From assembly GCA_006384855.1 (NCBI GenBank), contig VCJN01000265.1, positions 1 to 64,000 of the forward strand: DNA of 64,000 nt, given 5' to 3'. Origin of the DNA: Tetraselmis striata (taxonomy: Eukaryota; Chlorophyta; Chlorodendrophyceae; Chlorodendrales; Chlorodendraceae). The translations under genes and the position numbers were made by a program. Every line of letters begins with the position of its first letter. Within the stretch, counting starts at the first letter, position 1. Under the pieces are notes generated by a model. It was not told where the DNA came from. It saw only the letters and a list, made by a program, of their open reading frames with translations, and made no database searches. Shown in pieces: positions 1 through 14,350 of this stretch.

Positions 1-148
1 GCGGCGAAGTTGGTCATATTTCTAAGTTTACAATCACATATGTCAATACAGTGCCTTGTGTCACCCCATCTCATCAGCAAACCGCTGACTGGAAGAGCGC
101 AATGGCCGCAGAACATTGGTATTTGATAACTCTTCGTGATGTGATAGA

Positions 149-612
149 TCTAGATGTTCGGAGAATTCCTAGCTTGCTGTTGGGACAGAGTCTGTGGGAT
201 CAGAATATTGTAATTACAAATGATGAGAAATGTCCCATTATATTCTCATCTGCAGAATGCCCTTGCTAGGGGCATGCTCCATCTGCTCATCTGTCCATTT
301 CTCATGCTTCTTGATCTGGTTCCAATATCTAAAAGGCTATTCAGGTTCAGTCGGACACCTGTCAGAAATCTGGGTGTGTGATGAAGTGTTATATGAGGCA
401 TGTCTTCACATGCCTCACACCTGTCTTGCTCTGCAGGTCCAGTATATATCACTTGATAGTACCAGTACATTCAATCATTTCTGCGCAGTAGCCGTAATTT
501 ATACTGCACTATTACGAATATATTATCATCAGGCTGATTTGCCTATAAGCCAGATGGGGTCACTTACACTTCAGTGGACCAGTTGATCACCTGCTTCCAG
601 TGTTCGTCAACA
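149..612 (-). repeat. 3' LTR of the copia element
   Basis: This 464-bp direct repeat matches 7855-8318 with one difference noticed. In element sense it starts TGTTGACG and ends GAACATCTAGA, so the last six bases lie outside the usual TG...CA boundary. They are present in both copies, and including them gives a perfect target duplication. By eye I count only six CpG dinucleotides. The polyprotein stop codon lies in its first six bases. Confidence 0.93.
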
Positions 613-3600
613 CCCCTCCTCACTGGTTGCAGGTACAATATTGTAGTTCATGATGCGCGAGTTCAAGGCCTCAAACTGCTGGCGGGACGCAAGTGGCTTC
701 GTGAAGGTGTCAGCCAGCATGTCAGCAGTGGGCACATAGTACACCTTGATTTTCTTAGAGCGTTGTGCATCTCGCACGAAGTGAAGTCGGATGTCTAGGT
801 GCTTGGTCCGGGCTGAGGTCACGTCGTTGGTGGCGATTGTAATACATGCCTGGTTGTCCTCTCCGATTGCTGTGGCGCCGTCCTGCCTGAATCCCAGTTC
901 TGATAGCATCTGCCTCAAGAACATTGCCTCCTGCGCTGTGACACAAAGCGCTATATATTCTGCCTCTGCTGTCGAGAGTGCTACCAATGGCTGAAGCTTG
1001 GATAGGTAGCTGACGGCTGCTCCTGCAAGAAAGAATACATAACCGCTGGTCGACTTGCACTGACTGGGATACGTTGTTGGGAAGTTAGCATCGCTGTAAC
1101 CATGAAGACGAAACTCGCATTCTCCTCCGAAAGTCAGTCCCCGGTCATGAGTTCCTTTCAGGTACCGGAGGCAGTGTCGTGCATCTTCCATGTGTGCCTG
1201 AGTTGCTGATGTCATGAATCGGCATAGGCGGCAGACGGCCTCCGCGATGTCAGGACGTGTTGCAACTGCTGCGTACAGCAGTGCTCCAACGAGGCTCCGG
1301 TAGGTGGTGGTGGCGCTGTCATCTAGTGCGGTTGACGCCCTCGGGTCGTTGCCAGTACTTGGGATATGTGCGGGGGTGCAGTCACTCATACCGAAACGCT
1401 CCAGCATGTCGTGGATGTACTTGGACTGATGAATCTTGATCACGCCGGCTGTCAGGTCATGCTCCACCTTCATGCCCAACAGCCATGAGCAGGTGCCCAG
1501 CTCTTTGATGTCAAAGCGCTGTCCGAGTGCCTGCTTGAAGTGGGCGATCCAGGGGCGCGAGTTGCTGACAATGATGATGTCGTCCACGTAGATTGCGATA
1601 ATGCCCAGAATGCCGCCATCGCTGCTCCGGAAGACGTAGGCACCAGGATCGGTCCGCAGTTGTCGACAATGTTGTGATGTCATGTAGTCATTGAGTAGCT
1701 TCTGCCAGTTGTGGGGTGCTTGCTTTAGACCGTACACGGCTTTCCTTAGTCTGCACACCAGCTTCTCGCCATTAGGTCCATACTGCTCAAAGCCGCGGGG
1801 CTGCTCCATGTATATCTCCTCGCTCAGATCCGCGTACAGGAACGCGCAGTCCACATCGGTCTGTTCGATGTGAAGTCGATGGTGGGCGGCAATGGAAAAA
1901 ATGACTCGCAGGGTTGTGAACTTCACGGTGGGTGCGAAGGTGTCGGTGTAGTCGATGCCCTCGACCTGTGAGAACCCCTTAGCTACCACGCGAGCCTTGT
2001 ATCTTGCAGTTGTGCCATCAGAGTTGTGCTTGGTCTTGTACAGCCACTTGGACTTGACAGCCTTGCGTCCACCGGGCAGGACCACCAGCTCCCACGTGCG
2101 CCTTGAGTCCAGCGAGTTGTACTCCTGGTGCATTGCCTCCAGCCACCAGGCAGCCAGAGACGAGTTCATGGCCTCCGTGTAGGTCAGCGGGTCGCCAGGT
2201 GCTTCGCCCGCCAGTAGTACCCATTCACACGGGTCGATGTTGCGGATGAAGTCTTCTTGAACCACAGCTGCGTAGGTGGCCCCTCGTGGTACGGTGCTGC
2301 CATTGGAGGGATCGTATACACCGGGGGCATGTCTGCTGCGCTGCGGCCGGTTCAGGTTTGCAGCGGAGTCGGGGGGTGCGGTTGTCTGAGCTGGGGGCTG
2401 CGGACGGGTGCTGGGAGGTATAGCTGGGGTAGGTGGCTGAGGTGTTGGTCCTTCTGCTGGTGGCGCTGCTGGTGGCTGAGGCGGGGGCGGAGTGCGTACA
2501 CGATGGTGCTCGATAGAGTTGCTGTCGCTGTCGCTGTCGCTGCAGCTGTCGGATTCGCTGACATCGGATGGTATTGTCATGTTGCAGACGCGAGTGGGCT
2601 TCCATGCTGGTGGGAGTTCCACGGAGTGAGTTGATGCCGAGCAGGTAGGGCATATTGCTCGGGGCACAGCCCCTCCTGTCTTGGCGGCTGTGGCCCCTCC
2701 TGACTCTGTAGTCATCCCCTCCTGAGGGGCTGCAGACGGCCATGAATCGGGGTGCTCCAGGGTGCAGGGCGTGGAGCGATCAGTTTCATCGAAGGTGACG
2801 GATCGACTGGCCACAACAGAGCGCGAGGCGGGAAAGTACACAAGCCATGCCGGCGAGTCTGTGCAGTATCCAACGAAGACACCTTGGCGGGCGGAAGGGG
2901 CAGCCTTGTGCCGGGTACTGCGGGGAACGTGCGCATAGGCATCACAGCCAAACACACGGAGATGGCGCAAGTCTGGGATGGCGCCAGTCACGAGGTGAAG
3001 TGGAATTCCATGAACTCCACGGCGGAAGGTGCGGTTATAGATGTAGGCTGCGACCGACATGGCGAACTCCCAGTAGGTGTCTTGGAGGCTGGCGTAGTCC
3101 ATACAGCGAGCCCATTGGCTGAGGGTGCGCCAGGTGCGCTCCATCAGCCCATTCTGGAACTGGCTGTATGGTGCTGCATATGTGCGGCGAATGGTCAGGG
3201 CGTCGCAGGCGGACACATATGCTTGACCGCGGAAGGCTGTATCGTTGTCCAGACGCAATGCTGCGATGGAATGGCCGTAGCTGACCACCATGGTGTTGAA
3301 TGAACGCAGAGTAGCGGTAGCACATTGTCGGGAATTGCAGAAGAACAAGCATACCAGGGATGTCGCGTAGTCGACGTACCCACAGCAGTACGTGTGGCCT
3401 TGCAACGAAGGAGTGCGCAGCTCCCAGAAGTCGCTCCCAACGAGAGAGAATGGCACAGTTGGTTTCTCATGACAGATGCGCGGCATCGGGGCCACAGTGG
3501 ATTTGACGATTGCGCATGACTTGCAGAACGGAAGGCTGGTATGACGCAGGTTGGCATCGGGTCCCCCATTGGTAACTCGGTGCATGGCGCGCTCGTGGAT

Positions 3601-6600
3601 GTGACCGAGGCGCGCATGCCACAACATTTTGTCAGATGGTAATGCGCTGGAGGGTGTTGCGGCGAGGGCTGTGGCAGCTTCCACCGGACTACCGTGACGT
3701 TGACGCCGTCCCTGACGGAGCACGTGACTGTGCAGGATAAATAAGCGCCCGTCATTCTCGATGGGAATCGTTACGGCATCGGAGATCTGCATGGCGCTGC
3801 TGCGCGCTGTCATGACTATCCGAAGAGCTGCATTGGCATCCTGCGCCTGCCTCGCACTGAAGAGACGAAGCACCTCGTCATTGGTGCGGGAAGCGAGATC
3901 AGGCACATGAAGAACGTTGTGAAGGGTGCTGCAGGATGTATCGCCGTTGACGGCTCGCATGCTGATATGGACTGTACCGGTACCCACAGCGTAGGCGCCC
4001 AAGCCGCTGATCCATCGGCGCGGTATGGTCTGATAGTCGGAGTAGTCCTCGTACTGCGCCACCATGTGTGAGGTGGCGCCAGAGTCGAAGATCCATTTGT
4101 GGGGGAAGGTGTGAATGCTAGGAAGAGCGCTCTCGTCCTTGGACGCGGAGGAGATGGCCGCCATCAGCCAGCGCGCCACGTTTGAGTCCACACACGCTCC
4201 AATGATACGTCGACGCATATCGGCGGACACCTCAGGGAAGTCGACAGCGTTGGCATCGAAGCCCATAGAAATGCATTTGATGTCGGTGGGTGCTTCCTCA
4301 TACACGCCATTGTGTAGCAGCATACTGCTGCCCGGGGTGGACCCATGCATCCGGTGCGCGAAACTGCCTTTGCGGGACACAAACTTGCCAAACTTGCTGT
4401 GACGAAGGTGGGCGGGCGCCTGCCACTCCGGTGCGAAGCCACCCTTGGCAATCAAATCGCCCACGGTGGTCGGGCGACGGAGCGAACGATGGTAGTGGGC
4501 CTGCAGGGCGTCCGGGTCGCGCGCGTTGGTCCAGAGTAGGGTGTCGCGGCGGGATGATGATCCGAGCTCGTCTGCTCGGGCCAGGACAGGGTCCCCTAGG
4601 GCCGCGCAAATGGCAGGGAAACGCCCGGCTCCAGCGACATTCTCGATGACGTAGGTAATACCGCTCTGTGCGCGGTTGAGCTGCTTGACGAGACGGCAGA
4701 CGGCATAGAAGGGCTTGGCTCGCTGGTCATGCAGGCCTTGATTCCTCCCAGCTGATGAGAACGGCTGACACGGAGGTGTCGCCACGAGAAGGTCCACACG
4801 CGGAAGTGCGGCAAACATGTCTGTGGTGAGGAGTTGGACGTCATGAGTGGGGAGGCGATCGTAGGCATTGGCGATCGCATCATATGAGATGAGCGCAGTC
4901 CATTTTGCACGGACTCTGTTGAGCTCCAGGATCCCGGCAGCACGCACTGCGGCGTCATTCTCCACGAGTGTGATGGTAGCAATGCAGTGTCCGGCTGCAC
5001 AGAGTCCGTCAATGACGCCAAATGTGGCTCCTGCGCAGAGGATGACAACATGGAGTGGATGGTGGGGCATCAGTGCTGCAGGGTCGGCACGAACGTGGCG
5101 GATGGACGGCAGTGGCGCTGCCTCTCCCAGGAAACAATGCTGTTCAGCGGCCGCCAGAGCAGTCTCCAGTTGGTCGATAGCGTTGGGAGGGGGCGAGGGG
5201 ATGACAACTGGGGTGGTGGCTGCAAAGTGCTTGGTGCCCCCGATGGCAAAGGGGTCGCGCTTTCGAAGGCGACGAGCTGAGCGGCGATTGCGATGACGAC
5301 GTGCACTCTTGGTCATGGAGAGCCTGGCGTTACTGGATGAGACGCCCTCGGGAGCAGCAACATGCTGCGTCGATGGATTTTGAATGGACACGGCATCGCG
5401 GGGCACGAGGCGAAAGGAGTCCACGGCATCGTCCAGATAAATGTTGCGCATGACAGCAGGTGCAGTTGGGGAAGTCCCAGGGAGGCTGGCATTGGGCCAC
5501 GCTGTGAAGGTGCGGGCAGTGGCATGAATGGCGCGGCGGTGAAGTTTTAATGCACGGGTGCTGGGATTGCTGCGTGCGCCCAACGAGGAGGAGCGGCGAC
5601 CGATCGAGACGGCCTTGTCGTCATCAATGCTGTCCGGGGCCAGGTGCGGCATGTTGTCAGAGTCGGGGAAGACGCTGTCAGTCGTGTGCGACTGAGTAGT
5701 GGGTATGCCACAGAGCGAGGCTGTGCTTGCGTGCTGGGAGAAGTCGTTGTCACTGATACTGTTGTCGCTAATAAGCCCAGGAACGCTGTTGTTCTCGCAG
5801 CCAGTGTCGTCAGATACGGGTGACAATGTCAGATCATCAGCAGGAGCGAAGCCACGTGCTGCAAGTGCAGCCGGCGCCCAGTGACGCTGGAAATCCACCA
5901 GCATAGCTTCGTCATCATCGGCGCTGTCGTACCCGAGATCATGATCGCTCAGGCGGCTGCAGTCAGAAGACATGCCACTGCTGGTCGACGCGTTGAAGCG
6001 AGAAGCCGGTACGACGTGCGTCACAGTTGGCATCGGGACTGGTGCCTTACCCAAGCGGTGGGCGGCCGAGTGCAGCCAGTCAGCAGGCCATGGGGTGGGA
6101 TCATTTGTGATGATAGCTCTGCGCATGGCAACGTCGTTGGGCAGGATGGTCGCCTTGCTTGTGCGGGCCACAGTCATGGCCGCAGGGTCGGCTGCGATGA
6201 AGGCTGCAACGTCAGCAATGGCGGCACGCTCCGCAGCTTCCTCCTCAGCGACTGCCGCAACGGCGGCAGCAATAGCTTGCTCTTCAACTGACACAACGGC
6301 GATGGCGTCTCGCATTTCGCGCTCCTCCAGGAGGGTAGGCTCATCGTCTGGGCCAGCGGTGTCATCGGAGAAGGTGAGGGAACCGAACGGGTTGTGAGAG
6401 CTGAGCGGGGGTGGCGGCGCTGCCCTGATCATGGTGCGACGGCTAGTAGGCATCACGGACCAAGCGTCAGTCGGCATGGGTGGGAGCTCAGGTGTGGCGT
6501 TGGCAAGTAGCGCCGTGTGGAACGACAGTGCTCCAAACTCCTTGGCGGGCGGCTCCTCTGAACCAGGTGCAAGCCTTGGGCGGCCTTCTCCTGCTGTCTT

Positions 6601-7491
6601 CCTCTTGTCGGGCTTGGGGCAGTTACGGGCCAAATGTCCGATGGCATTGCAGTTGTAGCAGCGGCGGTTCTGCGAATTGAAGCGCAGTGCACTGCCGCCG
6701 CCTCCAGCGTTGTGCTGGGACTGCATTGCAGCCACCATAGCCTTCAGTTCGTCTACCTCGGACTTGCGGGTTGCAGCCTCGGCCTTCTTCTTCTCAGCTT
6801 CCAGCTCAGTTACGCGGGCTTGGAGGGCAGCGTAGGAAGTCGCCCCAGTTGGCGCAAAGGCAGCAAAGGCAGCGCCAGGTTGCTCCATACTGATGCTGTG
6901 GTCTTGGACAGTCCTGATCTTTGCCTTGGCCAGCTCGAAGGTGGTGACAGTGGGGTCCCCCTTCACCACTGCTCGGATAGTGGCCTCCTCAGTGCGCATG
7001 CCATTGAGCAGGGATACGAGCATGTCATCATCCGAGACAGTCGCACCACAGTCTTTGATGGCAATCTGTAGGTCCTCCAGCCGGGTCATGAAGTCAAGGA
7101 GATTTTCATGAGTACTCTGACCATGATTCAGTGACGCTTTCAGTTGAGCGAGAAGGGTACGTTCATCTGGAAGGTATGAAGCGCGGAGTTCCTGCAAGGC
7201 CTTGAGCGCCGCGCGTCCGCCTGCTGTCTCATTGGCGCGATCAGCGGCCTTGAGCCCGATGCCCTTGGCTTGATTATCTAGCAGTAGGGAAGCCATAAAG
7301 CTGACAGCTTCATTGTGATGCGCGTCATCAACAGTGGTGTCATTGACGCTGAAGATGTTGCGGTACCCAGGAACACCGCGGATGTGGCGCTTCACAGAGA
7401 TGCACCAGATCACGAGGAGGCGAGCATCATTGACCTCCTGAAATTCCAGGTACTTGGCCTCCTTGAGCTTGAGTTTAGCAGGGAGAGACAT
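607..7491 (-). CDS. Copia Gag-DNMT-Pol polyprotein, 2294 aa
   Basis: The frame is uninterrupted. Residues 1-230 are a copia-type gag, with a coiled coil near 220-250 and a CCHC zinc knuckle (C278, C281, H286, C291). A long Ser/Asp/Ala-rich, probably disordered linker spans about 300-800. Residues 805-1115 form a C5-cytosine methyltransferase: AdoMet motif I near 815-826, motif IV PPCQPFSSAG with catalytic C908, motif VI ENV with E950, an SSSRRD stretch at motif VIII, and a motif X-like IIGACVDSNV. Then follow an aspartic protease (DSG, D1136), a GAG pre-integrase HHCC region near 1290, an integrase core (D near 1350, D near 1413, E near 1449), a reverse transcriptase with YVDD at 1968-1971, and RNase H with STAEAEY near 2172. 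The product should assemble into virus-like particles, copy the RNA and integrate the DNA. The methyltransferase could modify element or host DNA; its activity is inferred. ATG at 7491 is the first in frame. Confidence 0.95.
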   Translation of the reverse strand: MSLPAKLKLKEAKYLEFQEVNDARLLVIWCISVKRHIRGVPGYRNIFSVNDTTVDDAHHNEAVSFMASLLLDNQAKGIGLKAADRANETAGGRAALKALQELRASYLPDERTLLAQLKASLNHGQSTHENLLDFMTRLEDLQIAIKDCGATVSDDDMLVSLLNGMRTEEATIRAVVKGDPTVTTFELAKAKIRTVQDHSISMEQPGAAFAAFAPTGATSYAALQARVTELEAEKKKAEAATRKSEVDELKAMVAAMQSQHNAGGGGSALRFNSQNRRCYNCNAIGHLARNCPKPDKRKTAGEGRPRLAPGSEEPPAKEFGALSFHTALLANATPELPPMPTDAWSVMPTSRRTMIRAAPPPPLSSHNPFGSLTFSDDTAGPDDEPTLLEEREMRDAIAVVSVEEQAIAAAVAAVAEEEAAERAAIADVAAFIAADPAAMTVARTSKATILPNDVAMRRAIITNDPTPWPADWLHSAAHRLGKAPVPMPTVTHVVPASRFNASTSSGMSSDCSRLSDHDLGYDSADDDEAMLVDFQRHWAPAALAARGFAPADDLTLSPVSDDTGCENNSVPGLISDNSISDNDFSQHASTASLCGIPTTQSHTTDSVFPDSDNMPHLAPDSIDDDKAVSIGRRSSSLGARSNPSTRALKLHRRAIHATARTFTAWPNASLPGTSPTAPAVMRNIYLDDAVDSFRLVPRDAVSIQNPSTQHVAAPEGVSSSNARLSMTKSARRHRNRRSARRLRKRDPFAIGGTKHFAATTPVVIPSPPPNAIDQLETALAAAEQHCFLGEAAPLPSIRHVRADPAALMPHHPLHVVILCAGATFGVIDGLCAAGHCIATITLVENDAAVRAAGILELNRVRAKWTALISYDAIANAYDRLPTHDVQLLTTDMFAALPRVDLLVATPPCQPFSSAGRNQGLHDQRAKPFYAVCRLVKQLNRAQSGITYVIENVAGAGRFPAICAALGDPVLARADELGSSSRRDTLLWTNARDPDALQAHYHRSLRRPTTVGDLIAKGGFAPEWQAPAHLRHSKFGKFVSRKGSFAHRMHGSTPGSSMLLHNGVYEEAPTDIKCISMGFDANAVDFPEVSADMRRRIIGACVDSNVARWLMAAISSASKDESALPSIHTFPHKWIFDSGATSHMVAQYEDYSDYQTIPRRWISGLGAYAVGTGTVHISMRAVNGDTSCSTLHNVLHVPDLASRTNDEVLRLFSARQAQDANAALRIVMTARSSAMQISDAVTIPIENDGRLFILHSHVLRQGRRQRHGSPVEAATALAATPSSALPSDKMLWHARLGHIHERAMHRVTNGGPDANLRHTSLPFCKSCAIVKSTVAPMPRICHEKPTVPFSLVGSDFWELRTPSLQGHTYCCGYVDYATSLVCLFFCNSRQCATATLRSFNTMVVSYGHSIAALRLDNDTAFRGQAYVSACDALTIRRTYAAPYSQFQNGLMERTWRTLSQWARCMDYASLQDTYWEFAMSVAAYIYNRTFRRGVHGIPLHLVTGAIPDLRHLRVFGCDAYAHVPRSTRHKAAPSARQGVFVGYCTDSPAWLVYFPASRSVVASRSVTFDETDRSTPCTLEHPDSWPSAAPQEGMTTESGGATAAKTGGAVPRAICPTCSASTHSVELPPAWKPTRVCNMTIPSDVSESDSCSDSDSDSNSIEHHRVRTPPPPQPPAAPPAEGPTPQPPTPAIPPSTRPQPPAQTTAPPDSAANLNRPQRSRHAPGVYDPSNGSTVPRGATYAAVVQEDFIRNIDPCEWVLLAGEAPGDPLTYTEAMNSSLAAWWLEAMHQEYNSLDSRRTWELVVLPGGRKAVKSKWLYKTKHNSDGTTARYKARVVAKGFSQVEGIDYTDTFAPTVKFTTLRVIFSIAAHHRLHIEQTDVDCAFLYADLSEEIYMEQPRGFEQYGPNGEKLVCRLRKAVYGLKQAPHNWQKLLNDYMTSQHCRQLRTDPGAYVFRSSDGGILGIIAIYVDDIIIVSNSRPWIAHFKQALGQRFDIKELGTCSWLLGMKVEHDLTAGVIKIHQSKYIHDMLERFGMSDCTPAHIPSTGNDPRASTALDDSATTTYRSLVGALLYAAVATRPDIAEAVCRLCRFMTSATQAHMEDARHCLRYLKGTHDRGLTFGGECEFRLHGYSDANFPTTYPSQCKSTSGYVFFLAGAAVSYLSKLQPLVALSTAEAEYIALCVTAQEAMFLRQMLSELGFRQDGATAIGEDNQACITIATNDVTSARTKHLDIRLHFVRDAQRSKKIKVYYVPTADMLADTFTKPLASRQQFEALNSRIMNYNIVPATSEEGC
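613..623 (-). other. Polypurine tract of the copia element
   Basis: Directly before the 3' LTR the element-sense strand reads gtgaggagggg, a purine-rich tract of the kind that primes plus-strand synthesis. The same bases encode the last residues of the polyprotein (SEEG), so PPT and coding sequence overlap. Confidence 0.7.
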
Positions 7492-7841
7492 GATGCAAGG
7501 GAGTCAGGTACACAGTCGGAGAGACTGACAGGGGGGGCTTTGCCAAAGTTGAGACGATCGGTTGTCACAGCCACAATCATAGAGTGGAGCTGAGTGGGGC
7601 TGAGAAGGGGGCAGAAGAGCTCGGAGCTGGGTTGCCAAGAGAGAGCTGGCTTGGGGTTCGACAAGTCGTTTGAGAGAGGCACACAGTTTCCCCTCCTCAG
7701 CAGCGAAGCTGCTGGCACAAAGTAAGCACAAAGCTGGCACGAAGTAGGCGAGCACACAGCTCCAGGCACACAGGCACACAGGCACACAGGCACGAAGAAC
7801 TGAACAGCAGGCTAGAAGCAGTGGAAGCTTTGAGTCGTGTA

Positions 7842-7854
7842 GCTAGCCATAACC
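7842..7854 (-). other. Primer-binding site, probably for a Met-tRNA fragment
   Basis: Immediately inside the 5' LTR the element-sense strand reads GGTTATGGCTAGC. Its complement contains CCATAACC, the anticodon-loop sequence of initiator Met tRNAs. Drosophila copia primes from the anticodon-side half of this tRNA, so the same half-tRNA mechanism is likely here. The match beyond about eight bases is not established. Confidence 0.55.
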
Positions 7855-8318
7855 TCTAGATGTTCGGAGAATTCCTAGCTTGCTGTTGGGACAGAGTCTG
7901 TGGGATAAGAATATTGTAATTACAAATGATGAGAAATGTCCCATTATATTCTCATCTGCAGAATGCCCTTGCTAGGGGCATGCTCCATCTGCTCATCTGT
8001 CCATTTCTCATGCTTCTTGATCTGGTTCCAATATCTAAAAGGCTATTCAGGTTCAGTCGGACACCTGTCAGAAATCTGGGTGTGTGATGAAGTGTTATAT
8101 GAGGCATGTCTTCACATGCCTCACACCTGTCTTGCTCTGCAGGTCCAGTATATATCACTTGATAGTACCAGTACATTCAATCATTTCTGCGCAGTAGCCG
8201 TAATTTATACTGCACTATTACGAATATATTATCATCAGGCTGATTTGCCTATAAGCCAGATGGGGTCACTTACACTTCAGTGGACCAGTTGATCACCTGC
8301 TTCCAGTGTTCGTCAACA
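7855..8318 (-). repeat. 5' LTR of the copia element
   Basis: Partner of the repeat at 149-612, same length, one substitution seen. It should contain the element promoter and polyadenylation site. A 118-codon frame read from it on the plus strand is also present in the left LTR; I regard it as chance. Confidence 0.93.
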
Positions 8319-8323
8319 ATAGA

Positions 8324-9278: not shown

Positions 9279-14350
<5,072 letters not shown>

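Follow-up and report, generated by a model that had tools for sequence, protein, structure and literature searches.

A Ty1/copia retrotransposon of the green alga Tetraselmis striata with a DNMT3-like cytosine methyltransferase domain in its Gag-Pol polyprotein

Introduction

Cytosine methyltransferases encoded by retrotransposons are described in a 2018 study (PMC5890265) from long interspersed nuclear elements (LINEs) and DIRS elements of dinoflagellates and from Gypsy elements of charophytes, and a preliminary description of the sequence studied here had named both groups of organisms; the 2018 study records abundant copia elements of Symbiodinium without a DNA methyltransferase (DNMT). Here we describe a copia-type long terminal repeat (LTR) retrotransposon of the chlorophyte Tetraselmis striata whose polyprotein contains such a domain. 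It lies within a stretch of 64,000 nucleotides, called the window (contig VCJN01000265.1, positions 1 to 64,000, GenBank assembly GCA_006384855.1). Among the described systems, KnitGypsy-Dnmt3 of Klebsormidium nitens resembles the window element in being an LTR element of the green lineage with a DNMT3-type domain in Pol, in occurring in several copies and in being under purifying selection (ratio of nonsynonymous to synonymous substitution rates, Ka/Ks, < 0.2; PMC5890265). It is, however, a Gypsy element with a DIRS-like repeat structure in a charophyte, whereas the window element is copia (RVT_2, copia domain order) in a chlorophyte, and its DNMT3 class was assigned by phylogeny, whereas the DNMT3 likeness of the window domain comes from structure and profile comparison. 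SymbioDIRS-Dnmt3 of Symbiodinium likewise has a DNMT3-type domain in a Pol polyprotein, makes cDNA and is present in many copies, but belongs to the tyrosine-recombinase DIRS elements, and its CpG activity has been demonstrated in yeast (PMC5890265).

A copia element is mentioned in a 2025 article (PMC12344493), of which one sentence names DNMT3 members in 'LTR Copia and DIRS'. The element type may be the same; the proteomes used came from EukProt, which also contains the T. striata proteins matched here. The sentence gives no species, structure or sequence, and it cites the 2018 paper, whose LTR element is Gypsy. The name Tetraselmis does not occur in the main text of that article. For the genus itself, PMC9998398 records DNMT5a from Tetraselmis astigmata and, from three Tetraselmis, a transcript of DNMT6. 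Among titles and abstracts searched, a coverage to which preprints and most subscription journals are external, none was found on a copia element with a methyltransferase or on any such element of Tetraselmis.

Results

The window element has a single gag-pol frame of 2,294 aa (607..7491; this and all other features of the element given below are on the reverse strand, except the target-site duplications, which have no strand). Residues 805-1115 (4147..5079) form, in frame between the CCHC knuckle and the protease, a complete C5-cytosine methyltransferase domain with a DNMT3-like fold, as judged by Pfam, profile comparison and predicted structure. The preliminary description had placed a methyltransferase at 4150-5070, at about residues 805-1115 of a 2294-aa frame between nucleocapsid and protease; the domain boundaries fit, the frame is exact and the Pfam order agrees. 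The profile check that it had proposed gave a match, PF00145 being recognized above its cut-off of 22 bits both in the polyprotein (residues 868-953; 2.4e-11, 44.1 bits) and in the isolated 311-aa domain (8.9e-13, 48.8 bits). The motifs stand in the expected order: a derived motif I (LCAGATFG) within residues 816-825, motif IV (TPPCQPFS, 4756..4779) with the presumed catalytic Cys908, motif VI (ENV, 4636..4644) with Glu950, motif VIII (GSSSRRDT, 4540..4563) and motif X (IIGACVDSNVARW; IGACVDSNVARW at 4168..4203). Motifs IV, VI, VIII and X had all been noted before and are present, but the motif VIII then called Arg-rich keeps only the first Arg of RxR (Arg982), the second being replaced by Thr984.

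In an alignment of 11 copia, LINE and environmental domains, numbered by domain, the invariant columns include Pro102, Cys104, Ser108, Asn147, Val148, Gly173, Ser174, Arg178, Trp183 and Asn185; Glu146 and Thr180 are kept in 10 of the 11 rows and Pro103 and Gln105 in nine. Key catalytic residues persist even where the domain of a family is only about 30% identical to that of the window. Thr180 aligns with the second Arg of DNMT3A motif VIII in the HMMER alignment. A structure predicted from 21 sequences (predicted local distance difference test, pLDDT, 91.2; predicted template modelling score, pTM, 0.89), which replaced an earlier model with pLDDT 74.8, was compared by VIA-align: DNMT3A/B/C came top (27.9, 2.8 Å, 269 residues), ahead of bacterial enzymes (about 23) and DNMT1 (22.6), and the Foldseek ranking concurs that the DNMT3-type fold is nearest. 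The family profile matched HaeIII at 1.5e-9 over a shorter stretch and DNMT3A at 1.1e-8 over motifs III-VIII plus a weak motif X piece. A VI-X profile built from two sequences had no match in PDB, so that the DNMT3 likeness rests on structure and the wider family profile; we call the domain DNMT3-like, not a proven DNMT3.

The element that carries this domain is a complete, young, recently inserted and structurally intact Ty1/copia retrotransposon of 8,170 bp (149..8318). Its 464-bp 5' LTR (7855..8318), starting TGTTGACG, differs by one mismatch from the 464-bp 3' LTR (149..612), and the pair is flanked by a target-site duplication, ATAGA (144..148 and 8319..8323). Adjoining the 5' LTR is a primer binding site (GGTTATGGCTAGC, 7842..7854; the sequence directly after the LTR starts GGTTATGG), the first bases of which are presumably the complement of the initiator-tRNA anticodon loop, as in half-tRNA priming; a polypurine tract (GAGGAGGGG, 613..621) adjoins the 3' LTR. 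By eye, the primer binding sites of families B, C and D, introduced below, are similar and that of family E has diverged. Pfam orders the polyprotein as CCHC, DNA_methylase, Pol_BBD, gag_pre-integrs, rve, SH3 and RVT_2, that is, with the protease-integrase-reverse transcriptase (RT) order of copia. The CCHC zinc knuckle of Gag occupies residues 277-293 (6613..6663; PF00098, 3.2e-6), the aspartic protease region, Pol_BBD, residues 1133-1201 (3889..4095; PF22936, 1.2e-10, with DSGATSH seen by eye), the integrase core, rve, residues 1347-1443 (3163..3453; PF00665, 2.2e-6, its 28.3 bits lying below the cut-off of 32.6) and the copia-type RT, RVT_2, residues 1798-2045 (1357..2100; PF07727, 1.2e-63). 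In the linker before the methyltransferase, a basic stretch (KSARRHRNRRSARRLRKRD, residues 728-746, 5254..5310) is a possible nuclear-localization or nucleic-acid-binding patch.

The 224 Mb T. striata assembly (2,903 contigs, the window being contig C205) contains many relatives of this domain. Queries with the window, family E and family D domains gave 132 (of 497 candidates, 127 scored), 128 and 131 listed matches; merging hits within 3 kb, with all rows of the first two queries and the 43 of 131 family D query rows assigned to D, left at least 243 distinct loci with the domain. This number is a lower bound because only the best candidates were scored, and it includes decayed or partial copies, possible assembly duplicates and 39 rows of a group G. 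Among the matches listed, 28 loci at ≥76% identity make up family A, that of the window element, and in 15 of these the domain is open, without a stop, from residue 1 or 2 to 311. Four more elements were read fully, one from each of families B (contig C2518), C (C1711), D (C193) and E (C427), with domains 52%, 45%, 35% and 30% identical to that of the window. At least five copia families share the domain, at 30-52% identity to that of the window element, and its position does not differ between the elements read. Their LTRs match over 516, 394, 319 and 482 bp with 0, 0, 4 and 0 mismatches, and 5-bp target duplications are readable by eye at all four, that of family D only with an LTR six bases longer than the matched stretch. 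Pfam support varies: in the C element PF00145 is below cut-off (18.5 against 22 bits), CCHC is below cut-off in the B and C elements and unmarked in those of D and E, where it is seen by eye, rve is unmarked in D and Pol_BBD in E; in B the pol frame is broken, its RT standing in a second frame outside the Pfam scan. Group G comprises 39 family E query rows that stop at query residue 206-208 (59-72% identity); the one copy read (L073, G000:C427:321800-329800) resembles a family E element but is shorter, at about 4.7 kb, has LTRs on both sides and carries a decayed methyltransferase from which PPCQ and ENV are gone.

The domain has matches at 93-100% among the T. striata proteins of EukProt (Tetstr1); long models with PF00145 make up four clusters (22 member sequences), of which P0001 is identical to the window protein across the regions compared. 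The published gene models P0001-P0004 skip protease, integrase and RT stretches as introns, probably an artefact. Six near full-length PF00145 matches (profile 1-320 of 324, E ≤5.5e-40) occur in 325-aa frames outside long polyproteins (L007-L012). No close host gene was recognized among the PF00145 and domain matches in the genome, in which host DNMT genes were not assembled from exons.

The methyltransferase domain is under purifying selection (dN/dS 0.21-0.23, against 0.68-0.73 for the adjacent linker). Family A copies without stops were compared for the domain (n=17) and for the 1,500 bases upstream (n=15) and downstream (n=12). Pooled over pairs with dS >0.03, which are not independent, dN/dS was 0.233 in the domain (range 0.169-0.645), 0.733 upstream (0.364-1.017) and 0.289 downstream (0.168-0.353); for the 11 loci without a stop in any of the three parts (dS >0.02) the values were 0.209, 0.676 and 0.304. 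An in-frame domain in several copies and selection on it are thus both found, as in other retrotransposon-encoded methyltransferases. Among 20 family A loci, C-to-T differences affect 3.7% of CG, 2.1% of CHG and 1.6% of CHH sites, and C-to-A/G differences show no CG excess (1.5, 2.2 and 1.3%); the median CG/non-CG ratio of C/T differences is 2.21 (range 0.97-3.56). Observed/expected CpG in the LTRs is 0.28 in A, 0.16 in B, 0.37 in C, 0.81 in D and 0.83 in E, and 1.02 in a copia family lacking the domain, the last from one short stretch that runs past the matched repeat. Within the window element, both LTRs are strongly CpG-poor (0.28) and the methyltransferase part is near 1.0.

That family without the domain is abundant, with many frames of 1,561 aa and an RT 50-51% identical to the window RT. 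The one copy read (L071) is an ordinary copia with the same order as the window element (Gag, CCHC by eye, protease, integrase, RT) but without a methyltransferase. Of the 150 RT loci listed, 58 have ≥58% identity, and 52 of these have a methyltransferase match within 0.5-5.5 kb; none of the 92 at 50-51% has one nearby. As only matches to the window-domain query were used, the six misses may partly reflect that list. Families D and E contribute no RT to these 150 loci; the RT of D is about 40% identical to that of A.

A related enzyme occurs in a LINE (L072, G000:C2687:15500-24500), where an open stretch of 2,565 aa, truncated at the limit of the sequence retrieved, encodes RVT_1, PCIF1_WW (8.3e-15), PF00145 (1e-8) and RNase H; by tree and alignment its methyltransferase groups with those of copia type. 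It recalls SymbioLINE-Dnmt of Symbiodinium, also a cytosine methyltransferase in a LINE, but the latter is mostly a separate upstream open reading frame (ORF) of an orphan lineage (PMC5890265), whereas that of L072 lies between RT and RNase H and is accompanied by a PCIF1-like domain. PF00145 rows resembling that of L072 (profile 49-116, 39 bits) were seen on contigs C653, C2172 and C596.

In a tree of integrase plus RT (seven rows, one a long outgroup), A and B group at 97/96, join C at 100/100, and D groups with E at 99/98; the family without the domain attaches to A-C at 84/89, a node that is not starred, and integrase alone leaves it unplaced. The 17 rows of the methyltransferase tree include four of bacterial type, from which the copia, environmental and LINE rows split at 100/100. 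Four of the five environmental rows form a group with D, E and the LINE at 96/92; D, E and the LINE unite at 85/82, and A, B, C and the metagenomic protein P0017 do not separate further. Metagenomic proteins show, from their sequences, that such elements exist in further sources: P0008 is 46% identical in the domain and 35% in the protease, P0013 has CCHC and PF00145, and P0015-P0017 and others are also related. Apart from these copia-like rows and Tetraselmis, protein matches bear names of prokaryote-type methyltransferases or none, the best covered being P0009 (29% identity over 70% of the domain). No close relative was found in prokaryote genome contigs (46 pattern-matching stretches, none confirmed by tblastn) or viral contigs (4 and 2 loci, 26-35% identity), and phage records gave weak matches only (527 at E ≤0.1, all <60% identity and none over >80% of the query). 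Small 'plasmids' of Kitasatospora/Streptomyces (L074, NZ_CP115454.1; NZ_CP115302.1) encode a copia-like integrase-RT, perhaps from contaminating plant DNA.

Elsewhere in the window, long ORFs on both strands at 9458-10378 span poly-C/poly-G tracts and are probably not genes; neither Rfam nor ARAGORN gave a match anywhere in it.

Discussion

The preliminary description had envisaged an intact copia element in a chlorophyte-like genome, and the host is indeed a chlorophyte and the element intact in its LTRs, target-site duplication and frame. With an intact in-frame domain and, in the search of the genome that it had suggested, other copies bearing it, neither of the contrary findings it had named was made: PF00145 did match, and the copies do not lack the domain through a local assembly join. 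It had offered another capture event or a new lineage of the same; a capture in copia stands, and extends from one element to at least five copia families, a related domain being present in a LINE. The two trees are compatible, and we favour, on the sequences at hand, one old capture followed by loss in the line of L071, the domain probably being present already before the copia families split. Less favoured alternatives are that the domain was gained twice or that elements exchanged it.

Our working hypothesis, to which we give about an even chance, is that this intact copia element has a functional-looking DNMT3-like methyltransferase in Gag-Pol that methylates its own new cDNA; catalysis and self-methylation are what we infer for the domain. 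Virus-like particles would take up the polyprotein, which would be cleaved by its own protease, and the methyltransferase, beside RT and integrase, would methylate cytosines of the new cDNA, most likely in CpG, no later than the moment of integration. Each new copy would therefore already be methylated on arrival and would pass for silent DNA of the resident genome, not for foreign or damaged DNA, which might limit harm to the host and let copies accumulate. The CpG-enriched C/T differences fit methylated copies, although they do not name the methylating enzyme. Several observations weigh against this hypothesis. A large copia family thrives without a methyltransferase; single pairs reach a dN/dS of 0.645 in the domain; CpG depletion is weak in the LTRs of D and E; and host enzymes could be the cause of CpG decay, the C/T test having covered domain-bearing copies. 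The second Arg of motif VIII RxR is Thr in all 10 non-LINE rows of the 11-row alignment, and motif IV departs from PPCQ in family C (PPCA), family D (PCCE) and P0017 (PDCQ). To our knowledge, LINEs make no free cDNA in particles, so that the related domain in L072 makes methylation of particle cDNA not its sole use. In the yeast assay of the 2018 study, no methylation was obtained with the domains from LINE and Gypsy elements, a result its authors called inconclusive (PMC5890265).

The presence of PCIF1_WW beside the LINE enzyme raises a different target. The named member of the PCIF1_WW family is a cap-RNA methyltransferase, HaeIII, HhaI and DNMT2, the last a tRNA methyltransferase, are among the best sequence matches around motif IV, and the loss of the second Arg of motif VIII points the same way: the domain might methylate RNA (the genomic RNA of the element or its tRNA primer), stabilizing or masking it, in place of cDNA. 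RNA methylation was also raised for the SymbioLINE enzyme by the 2018 authors (PMC5890265). We nevertheless think this unlikely, as the predicted fold is nearest to DNA-bound DNMT3A/B and RNA methylation by itself would not be expected to concentrate C/T differences between copies at CpG. The same missing Arg and the motif IV variants of C and D could instead mean that catalysis has been lost and that the domain survives in Gag-Pol because it binds nucleic acid or has a structural role; yet Cys is present in 11 of 11 rows and Glu in 10 of 11, dN/dS is low, and the single copy read from the deletion-bearing group G has a decayed catalytic site, which makes this reading improbable.

Selection on the domain, CpG decay of the copies and the long linker with its basic patch directly before the domain would all suit an enzyme acting after integration, at the level of chromatin, to recruit or counter host silencing, for instance through methylation of integration sites or of competing elements. 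The position of the domain inside Gag-Pol, without a separate frame, argues against a free nuclear enzyme, and we consider such a role quite improbable, although hiding copies from, or recruiting, host silencing, as the preliminary description proposed, is compatible with the data. That the domain is a functionless passenger, either a captured gene fragment or an assembly join, is exceedingly unlikely given a dN/dS of 0.21-0.23, the 243 or more distinct loci and the LTRs and 5-bp target duplications seen in one element from each of five families. An assembly join or a chance match was rejected in view of the many copies with an open domain and the catalytic residues kept across distant families.

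More tentatively, and with somewhat less than even confidence, we suggest a retrotransposon-resident methyltransferase lineage. It would have belonged from early on to the core of a whole copia clade, disappeared from one sister family and moved between copia and LINE elements; joined in the LINE by a PCIF1-like RNA-methyltransferase domain, it would form a mobile toolkit with which elements modify their own nucleic acids independently of host DNMTs.

Why a parasitic element should carry an enzyme of the type used in host silencing is a question left by the discussion of the 2018 report (PMC5890265). T. striata is a natural comparison for it, with hundreds of loci and at least five families bearing the domain, an abundant related family that lacks it and a LINE whose enzyme is related. 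As young families with and without the domain share one genome, self-methylation can be tested through 5-methylcytosine at new insertions. The methyltransferase is an old, selected feature of many related T. striata copia elements, by which these may mark their own copies.
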